Notes under the pieces: generated by a model | Database searches by the model: none | Told to the model about the DNA's origin: nothing | What the model saw: the letters and a program-made list of their open reading frames with translations, nothing else | Position numbers and translations under genes: made by a program | Assembly: GCF_003144115.1 (NCBI RefSeq) | Contig: NW_020312013.1 | Location: 310,001-374,000 of the forward strand | Origin: Tilletiopsis washingtonensis | Lineage: Eukaryota; Basidiomycota; Exobasidiomycetes; Entylomatales | DNA length: 64,000 nt | Direction of reading: 5' to 3' | In this document: positions 41,080 to 43,123 of the stretch, in pieces | Position numbering within the stretch: position 1 is the first letter of the stretch | Layout: each line of letters starts with the position of its first letter

Positions 41080-42186
41080 TCATCCGTCTCGCTTTCTTCG
41101 CACTTTCCCTGCCATTCTTGCGTCTCTCACTTGCCTCCTCATGACTGTATCACCGCCTTGCCTGTCTACTACCCCCACTTCCCATCTCACTTCTCTCGTC
41201 TCACTTCTCCATCGTATTACATTTGCACACGCCTGCTCGAGCACGGCCCACAGGGCAATCGCGCCTGCCCTCAGAGGGGGGACTTGGTAAGGTAAGAAAA
41301 AGTCAAGGTGAGGGGGGCTTTCGCTCGGCCTGCATCCGGCGTGCGAGGGGCAGTAGGAGTCCTACAGCTATGCGCTTCCATGCGAACGCCGAGCATCCGG
41401 CAAGGAGAGAGGCGCAGAGGTCGGATCGGGCTGCTTCGAGCCGCGCTAAGATGCGTATGGTAGGTCATTGATGGCGCAACTGCAACGCGAGCGAAGCGGG
41501 CCCAGAAAACCCTAACGAGGTGGTCGCGTGTGTTTACGCAGGACGTAGACACACAAACGAGCGCGGCGGGATAGCAGCCGCACCGATCGTCTTGCGCAAG
41601 GGAGCTCAAAACGACGCCGTTTACGTTGCTCGAGCGTTTGCAACTGCGCCGCGACCTGGACGCCAAAACGCAGCGCTGGCTCGGCTACCAGTTCCGCCAT
41701 CAAAACCTGCTTGCCCCCTCTTCTCCACCGCGACGCTCAGCAGCTCGCAACGCACAGCTCTCGTCCAATCCGGACTCGCAGCAACGCGACGCAGGTTTGT
41801 CCTCGAGCGAAACGCTCCCAGCCACACCAACGCCGTGTCGGTTCTTGCGCGCCTCCTTTGCTCGATGCACATACATCGCTCCTGTCCGTGGATCGCCCCG
41901 ACAAGAGACTCTGCCACACCCGCAAGTACACACTCCACACGTGCGTCCGCCCGAGTGAACCACCCCCCACGTGTGGACGAGGACAATCGGACGCGCATGT
42001 GTCTCCCTGCCTCATCCTTGCTCCCTTCTTGCGCCCCGCACGACCAGCGCACAAACTAGCACAGCAACCACGCACCGCGCCAAAGGTCTTTGTGGGTTGT
42101 CCGCCGCCAGATAACAGCCTGAGAGAGGAAGTACCCGCGCACGAGTGGGGGGCAAAGACAGCTTTGCAGAAGACCCCCCTTTTCAT

Positions 42187-42232
42187 GAGAGTACGCCTTC
42201 TCCCCCCCGGGAGAGGGGAGACGCATACTCTC
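42187..42232 (-). repeat. 46-nt inverted repeat / hairpin
   Basis: GAGAGTA (42187-42193) pairs with TACTCTC (42226-42232). Inside, TCTCCCC (42199-42205) pairs with GGGGAGA (42215-42221). On the minus strand the linking pairs improve through a U-G wobble. It could be an RNA element of the candidate ncRNA or a cruciform-type DNA element. Confidence 0.7.
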
Positions 42233-42459
42233 GCCGTGCTCGTCCACGCGCCCTTGTGCGGCCTTTCCGCAAAGAACAGGCGTCCGAGCAACGAAGGAAC
42301 GCGCGAAGCCGAGCAGCAGCTTGGGAGAGGGAGGGCGCGCGACACATATGATTTGGCCCGCCCAGACGGGAGGCGGCCAGCTGCCAACGCGCCCGGCCGT
42401 GTTGCCGCCCACCAATGCGCATGCACGCAACAGCAGCGACAAGCCACGGCCAAGATGAC

Positions 42460-42471
42460 TTAGGGTTAGGG
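42460..42471 (+). repeat. two tandem TTAGGG units (interstitial telomere-like motif)
   Basis: TTAGGGTTAGGG, perfect, inside the spacer between Lon and the Sds3/Dep1 gene. A single ACCCTAAC occurs at 41509-41516. I found no other TTAGGG or CCCTAA by eye in the window. It is too short to be a telomere relic. It could be a telomerase RNA template (minus strand) or a Tbf1-like binding site. Confidence 0.85.
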
Positions 42472-43123
42472 AGAAGTCTCTGCGGTCCCGCATGTCTGCT
42501 CGCAGGAATGCGAAGCAACAGGGCACCGCATGTGAGACTTTGCGCATGCGCCGTGCACAGCCTTACCCCGAGAGGAAGAGCGTGCGCGGACATGCGCGGC
42601 GCCAGGACGTGCGTGGCGACAAAGTGCCAGCCTGCACGCTGGCGCGAGACGCAAGCAGGAAGAAGCGACGAGACGGGAGAACGGCGGCACCGGGGAGGGC
42701 AGAGCTGTGCCAGGACGAGGACGGAGAGGAGACGCGGCGAGACGGCGACGACGACGACGGGCAGCGCTGGGAGGGAGTGGGGGAGAGAGAGAAGCGAGCG
42801 TCGAGCCGACGCGTCGAAGGCGCGCACTCGGCGGGACGCGTCGGCGTGGGACCACAGTGGAGCAGGCGTGTCACGTGCGCTGCGCCAGCGGCGTGCGGCC
42901 GGCGGTGCGCTCGATGCGCCGCCGCTTCGCCCGCTCCACGCTCGGCCACCGCCGTGCCTCGCGCATGGGAGGCCTGACGTGCGTGCGTGCGCTCCCCGCT
43001 CCCCCCACCACCGCACCCTCGCTCGCTGCTCGTCCCTTGCGTACCTGCGCTCGCTCGCGGCCGCCTCTCTCCCTCCCGCGCCCGCCCGCCCGCTGTGCTG
43101 TCTGCGCCGCCTGCGGCCAGGCC

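Follow-up and report, generated by a model that had tools for sequence, protein, structure and literature searches.

A candidate telomerase RNA locus in the Lon–Sds3 intergenic spacer of Tilletiopsis washingtonensis

Does the minus strand of an intergenic spacer in Tilletiopsis washingtonensis encode the telomerase RNA of this fungus? The window, that is, the whole stretch of DNA analyzed here, covers 64 kb (C16:310001–374000) of an assembly of 18.7 Mb in 32 contigs. An earlier reading based on the letters alone (the sequence-only reading) had placed a candidate telomerase RNA locus on this strand. In our analysis, a minus-strand telomerase RNA gene with its own divergent promoter was the leading explanation, and we gave it a probability of roughly one in two. 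The spacer, which shows several but not all features of such an RNA and was not an expected location for it, is the best telomerase RNA candidate found in this genome, and its membership in this class of RNA is not established.

The spacer was located between a Lon protease gene (stop at ~41079) and an Sds3-like gene (start at ~43124), both on the plus strand, with the ends placed by eye. The closest named relative of the first Lon ORF belonged to Ceraceosorus bombacis (63% identity), followed by Exobasidium (57%), and by this single protein the fungus appears to belong to Exobasidiomycetes and not to Ustilaginales. The protein cluster of the Lon N-terminal part comprised 11 sequences from 7 contigs. 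No clear codon-usage signal was detected in the six frames of the spacer up to ~42950, a minus-strand block of low complexity scored 0.22 in this test, and seven ORFs in or across the spacer had no Pfam match at E 0.1. On these two analyses, a minus-strand protein-coding gene in the spacer was rejected, and the earlier claim that it is protein-free was borne out. No repeat origin was indicated by BLAST against the genome segments extracted for analysis. The spacer had also been described as unusual in base composition, which was true mainly of the pyrimidine-rich part of the minus strand (Table 1).

The 12-mer CCCTAACCCTAA was found as an exact match at 42471–42460 on the minus strand, as the sequence-only reading had reported. 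It was the sole match within the window with at most one mismatch, and shuffled sequences gave an expectation of 0.01 per window. The telomere repeat of the species was confirmed as TTAGGG by 342 + 332 12-mer matches in the assembly, which for most among the matches listed formed arrays at contig ends. The candidate template comprised 12 nt of the CCCUAA repeat, which exceeds one repeat and does not exceed two, and was complementary to the TTAGGG telomere. Six phase-specific searches of the genome yielded 69 left-maximal telomere-like runs of at least 9 nt; any telomerase RNA whose template is shorter than this limit would have escaped these searches. Twenty-one of them were set aside (20 telomeric or subtelomeric runs and one run in an array 8.8 kb inside contig C4), and 48 were kept. 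The telomeric array in C4 (G000:C4:8760–8795) has the orientation of a left end and lies 8.8 kb inside the contig start; it must be an internal one unless the contig end was misjoined. Six of the 48 non-telomeric runs had at least 12 nt (19, 14, 13, 12, 12, and 12 nt). Because 18.7 Mb held so many such runs, the 12-mer by itself is little proof at the genome scale.

Other runs were considered as templates and rejected. Five of the rejected sites contained UAACCCUAA: the 19-nt run of L029 exceeded two repeats, the run of L059 was one of an inverted pair and its template was paired, the intergenic 13-nt run of L060 lacked a boundary helix as well as a pseudoknot and an Sm-like site, that of L027 was in an intron-like stretch interrupting an ORF and was only 0.03 unpaired, and that of L025 was within a coding-like ORF. 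At L043, whose 12-nt run did not contain UAACCCUAA, a boundary helix was lacking and the pseudoknot, at 1148 nt, was weaker. Two of these places showed features of their own. The runs at L059:3059–3097 (G000:C1:566058–566096) were arranged head to head, with 14 nt on the plus strand and 12 nt on the minus strand separated by 13 bp, directly upstream of a coding-like ORF and may form a duplex TTAGGG-binding promoter element. Rfam matched a tRNA gene (36.8 bits) at a distance of ~400 bp from the interstitial 19-nt run at L029:2059–2077 (G000:C15).

The genes EMI1, DUF1115, and ornithine aminotransferase adjoin the telomerase RNA in Ustilaginales or Malassezia (PMC10035886; PMC10532341; PMC12506658). 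The sequence-only reading had seen no EMI1-like gene at the present locus, and this held: the single EMI1-like gene (PF11326) was on contig C20. No template-like run of at least 7 nt was found within the 9.5-kb stretches around this gene, the DUF1115 gene (C25), and the best ornithine aminotransferase gene (C8). A C/D snoRNA-like match to the snR61 family (L012:4552–4648, G000:C20; 39 bits, below the gathering level of 45) was located ~340 bp from an EMI1-like exon match.

Table 1. Positions in the window of the spacer and of the features discussed in the text.
Feature	Position	Strand	Evidence or remark
Non-coding spacer	41080..43123	.	From the Lon protease stop to the inferred Sds3-like start codon (first ATG); ends by eye
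Pyrimidine-rich stretch	42641..42762	-	Possible promoter or start of a minus-strand transcript; composition only
Predicted helix, 5' arm AAGUCUC (RNA)	42534..42540	-	Inverted repeat, fold
Predicted inner hairpin	42482..42529	-	GGGCACCGC at 42521–42529 (plus strand) opposite GCGGTCCC at 42482–42489; minimum-energy fold
Predicted helix, 3' arm GAGACUU (RNA)	42474..42480	-	Ends 2 nt 5' of the template; pair probabilities 0.75–1.0 in four global folds
Candidate template 5'-CCCUAACCCUAA-3'	42460..42471	-	Exact match; includes the Ustilaginales template UAACCCUAA
Predicted stem 1, 5' strand GGGGGG	42174..42179	-	Pseudoknot search
Predicted loop 1 UCUUCUGCAAAGCU	42160..42173	-	Pseudoknot search
Predicted stem 2, 5' strand GUCUUUG	42153..42159	-	Pseudoknot search
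Predicted stem 1, 3' strand CCCCCC	42147..42152	-	Pseudoknot search
Predicted stem 2, 3' strand CAAAGAC	42086..42092	-	Pseudoknot search
Second telomere-like run AACCCTAAC	41508..41516	+	GUUAGGGUU in the minus-strand RNA, complementary to the template
Sm-like site ACUUUUUCU	41295..41303	-	Possible RNA 3' end; one base off the Ustilaginales AAU5-6CY (PMC10035886)

Next to the template, the 7-bp inverted repeat noticed earlier was exact (AAGTCTC at 42474–42480, GAGACTT at 42534–42540), and the minimum-energy fold turned it into a strong template-adjacent hairpin, in agreement with the hairpin that had been claimed. The ranking of the 48 sites combined the unpaired state of the run with the presence of a helix of five or more pairs that ended 0–6 nt upstream. 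The candidate came first for a predicted open template plus boundary helix (mean unpaired 0.88 in the 212-nt fold, helix 0.99, product 0.87), by a narrow margin over site L033 (0.83, 1.0, and 0.83). When the 12-mer was inserted in 4000 random positions of the extracted DNA, 0.9% reached the candidate's values and 3.5% reached 0.8/0.8; with shuffles of the candidate's own flanks (n = 1000), the fractions were 0.3 and 0.7%, and only 0.025% of 4000 random positions qualified if no motif was inserted. The predicted open template and helix were robust with flanks of 80–300 nt and were lost with 60 nt because the hairpin gets cut. In global folds of 581–1351 nt, the first ten bases of the template were 0.67–0.99 unpaired and the last two 0.36–0.53. 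The folding stability of the boundary-helix block was z −3.18 on the minus strand vs. −2.84 on the plus strand (60 shuffles each).

Two marks could be added to the features listed by the sequence-only reading, and both followed in the expected order: a pseudoknot and an Sm-like site. The predicted pseudoknot, found by eye and then by script, reads GGGGGG–UCUUCUGCAAAGCU–GUCUUUG–CCCCCC–54 nt–CAAAGAC and was positioned 292–385 nt downstream of the template start. The UUCU of loop 1 can be placed parallel to the AAGA of stem 2, where four major-groove triples (U.A-U, U.A-U, C.G-C, and U.A-U) might form. Under strict rules, the candidate was the only one of the 48 sites with a pseudoknot; in shuffled sequences, any strict pseudoknot was found in 19/3000 and an equally strong one in 0/3000. 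Four more strict pseudoknots occurred in the rest of the extracted DNA, all of them weaker. Relaxed rules gave pseudoknots at 7/48 sites and in 31/500 shuffles. By a stacking-energy score, the candidate's pseudoknot ranked first of 48 and was equalled by 1/1000 shuffles. The hairpin of its stem 1 has a rival inner pairing. The block had a folding stability of z −2.68 on the minus strand vs. −1.87 on the plus strand (60 shuffles each).

The Sm-like motif (A-N-U5-C-Y) was located 1168 nt downstream of the template. The search pattern was loosened by one base to A-N-U5-6-C-Y once the match had been seen; with this relaxed pattern, a motif 500–1300 nt downstream was found at the candidate only (1/48) and in 1.4% of 2000 shuffles. 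At the other end, the pyrimidine-rich stretch was 170–300 nt upstream of the template. Stretches with at least 75% pyrimidine over 120 nt numbered three on the minus strand of the window, this one included, and 12 on the plus strand. By this measure the candidate was second of the 48 sites, tied with L046 and behind the plus-strand site of its own spacer.

No canonical P6.1 hairpin (UUNGN loop) was found 3' of the pseudoknot, and the sole such hairpin was at ~42273, that is, 5' of it. The full P6.1 score, reached at 4/48 sites, had no placement in the candidate. With up to two mismatches, the P6.1 pattern had 26 matches in the window vs. 26.9 expected, and none on the minus strand of 41300–42471. 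A search for a three-way junction returned 71 loose arrangements, which were uninformative, and 18 strict ones; the 12 listed among these all used the ~42273 hairpin. The comparison with covariance models that had been proposed returned no telomerase family, either at the Rfam gathering level in the window or at E up to 10 at the locus, and the same was true at E up to 10 of eight other loci; the Rfam telomerase models may, however, have little sensitivity for basidiomycetes. Exact 20-mer scans of the collections viral_contigs and genome_contigs, which contain no fungi, gave no match, as was to be anticipated. P6.1 was lost in echinoderms and protostomes (PMC8480181), and the absence of this element is therefore compatible with a telomerase RNA. 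Since the canonical P6.1 was missing, the candidate should not be filed as a member of the fungal telomerase RNAs now. In short, the earlier proposal was partly supported: telomere repeat, motif, non-coding spacer, and hairpin were confirmed, and the Rfam match and canonical P6.1 failed to appear.

The spacer also contained the run AACCCTAAC on the plus strand (41508–41516), which the sequence-only reading had passed over in silence. Two of the 48 genomic runs therefore share one spacer, in opposite orientation and 950 bp apart. In a minus-strand RNA, GUUAGGGUU (41516–41508) could pair with the template at −10.8 kcal/mol across ~950 nt. A telomerase RNA should avoid such a template-complementary 9-mer unless its 3' end precedes the 9-mer or structure masks it. 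The paired runs are poorly explained by the telomerase reading or by chance.

A different explanation takes both runs as duplex binding sites in a promoter: a Myb protein that recognizes TTAGGG, of the Tay1/Trf2/Tbf1 kind, would bind them and regulate the Sds3-like gene or a divergent transcript, and the hairpins would be incidental. In its favor, a chance neighbor within 1 kb was estimated by hand for ~0.5% of sites. GGGTTA/TAACCC is the binding sequence of the U. maydis proteins Tay1 and Trf2, and the relative in S. pombe acts as a transcription factor (PMC7744550). A coding-like ORF lay no more than 400 bp downstream of 14/44 other runs vs. 17.3% of random positions; however, the excess was no longer clear when only non-coding positions were compared (14/31 vs. 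~33%, own arithmetic). Telomere-like runs were not in excess genome-wide either (69, telomeric ones included, vs. 120 matches of reversed control patterns), and the 12-mer was ~650 bp upstream of the inferred Sds3-like start codon. Promoter elements would predict neither a boundary helix nor a pseudoknot nor an Sm-like motif, and we considered this explanation unlikely. Could the plus-strand run itself be a template? An RNA with AACCCUAAC (41508–41516) as template would stem from the 3' UTR of the Lon mRNA, comparable to the EMI1 case in U. maydis. The run is on the same strand as the upstream Lon gene and 429 nt past its inferred stop, similar to the U. maydis template, which is 385–393 nt into the intergenic region (PMC10035886), and a P6.1-like hairpin with the loop UUAGG was found 947 nt downstream. 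However, the boundary helix was absent (0.04), the template was 0.69 unpaired, and strict and relaxed pseudoknots and the Sm-like site were all lacking, which made a plus-strand telomerase RNA very improbable.

It might also be that the 12-mer is simply one of several in 18.7 Mb and that the structural matches reflect intensive scrutiny of a spacer rich in G+C and in hairpins. The six runs of at least 12 nt and the frequency of relaxed pseudoknots fit this possibility. All structural tests were devised after inspection of the candidate site, and the quoted frequencies overstate the evidence because the structural scores were set up post hoc. Even allowing generously for hindsight, we thought chance unlikely, because three independent features (boundary helix, strict pseudoknot, and Sm-like site) came together, correctly ordered and suitably spaced, at a single one of the 48 sites, and each had a frequency of ~1% or below in its respective control. 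The estimate for a minus-strand telomerase RNA was kept near even because P6.1 was missing and the complementary 9-mer was present.

If the telomerase RNA is real, its position antisense between the Lon and Sds3-like genes means that it would have its own promoter. Transcription by RNA polymerase II would begin near the pyrimidine-rich stretch (~42640–42760), divergent from the Sds3-like gene, and produce a minus-strand RNA of ~1.1–1.35 kb. TERT would use the single-stranded CCCUAACCCUAA to make TTAGGG repeats, copying would be halted by the helix two bases 5' of the template, and the downstream pseudoknot would place the template. The Sm-like U-rich site near 41300 may represent the 3' end of the RNA. 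Going one step further, we speculated that this is an independent, divergent telomerase RNA gene rather than an mRNA product, with its canonical P6.1 lost or replaced, and that both the origin and the activation domain vary within the subphylum; this proposal is tentative and less likely than not.

If true, the locus would provide a telomerase RNA in Exobasidiomycetes, a fungal class for which none was found in the literature searched (no paper combined "telomerase RNA" and "Exobasidiomycetes"). An origin from mRNA, as described in U. maydis and suggested in Malassezia, would then not be common to the whole subphylum. With exact coordinates and a testable fold, the otherwise hard hunt for a rapidly evolving RNA is reduced to a straightforward bench experiment.

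In Ustilago maydis and other Ustilaginales, ter1 (UmTER) likewise serves TTAGGG telomeres and has UAACCCUAA as its template, which is included in the candidate template (PMC10035886). The U. maydis template is at 385–393 and the pseudoknot at 730–780, and the distance of ~350–390 nt between template and pseudoknot in Ustilaginales is similar to that predicted for the candidate; ter1 has a U-rich Sm-like site toward the 3' end, comparable to the putative site of the candidate (PMC10035886). However, ter1 follows EMI1 on the same strand and precedes an ornithine-oxo-acid transaminase gene, whereas the candidate would be antisense between its neighbors, and the P6.1-like element reported for ter1 was not found in the candidate (PMC10035886). 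For the telomerase RNAs of Ustilaginales and Malassezia, an origin in the transcript of a protein gene that precedes them on the same strand is reported or proposed (PMC10035886, PMC12506658). In this respect the candidate would differ from both.

MgTER of Malassezia resembles the candidate in its small non-coding spacer, and a template-boundary stem, a pseudoknot, and an Sm-like site comparable to the predicted ones of the candidate have been proposed for it (PMC12506658). It is ~500 nt long, lies between NDK1 and a DUF1115 gene, and has a proposed NDK1 read-through precursor, whereas the DUF1115 gene of the present genome is on another contig than the candidate (PMC12506658). The Aspergillus telomerase RNAs differ in their compact three-way junction with a vertebrate-like P6.1, which was not found in the candidate, and in the 5' splice site beside the Sm-like site, for which a non-systematic look at the candidate gave no counterpart (PMC3603654). 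Their pseudoknot with U-A.U triples and their U-rich Sm-like site resemble the predicted pseudoknot and the putative Sm-like site of the candidate, and their yeast-type boundary helix of ~8 bp is mostly two nt from the template, the same spacing as predicted for the helix in the candidate (PMC3603654).
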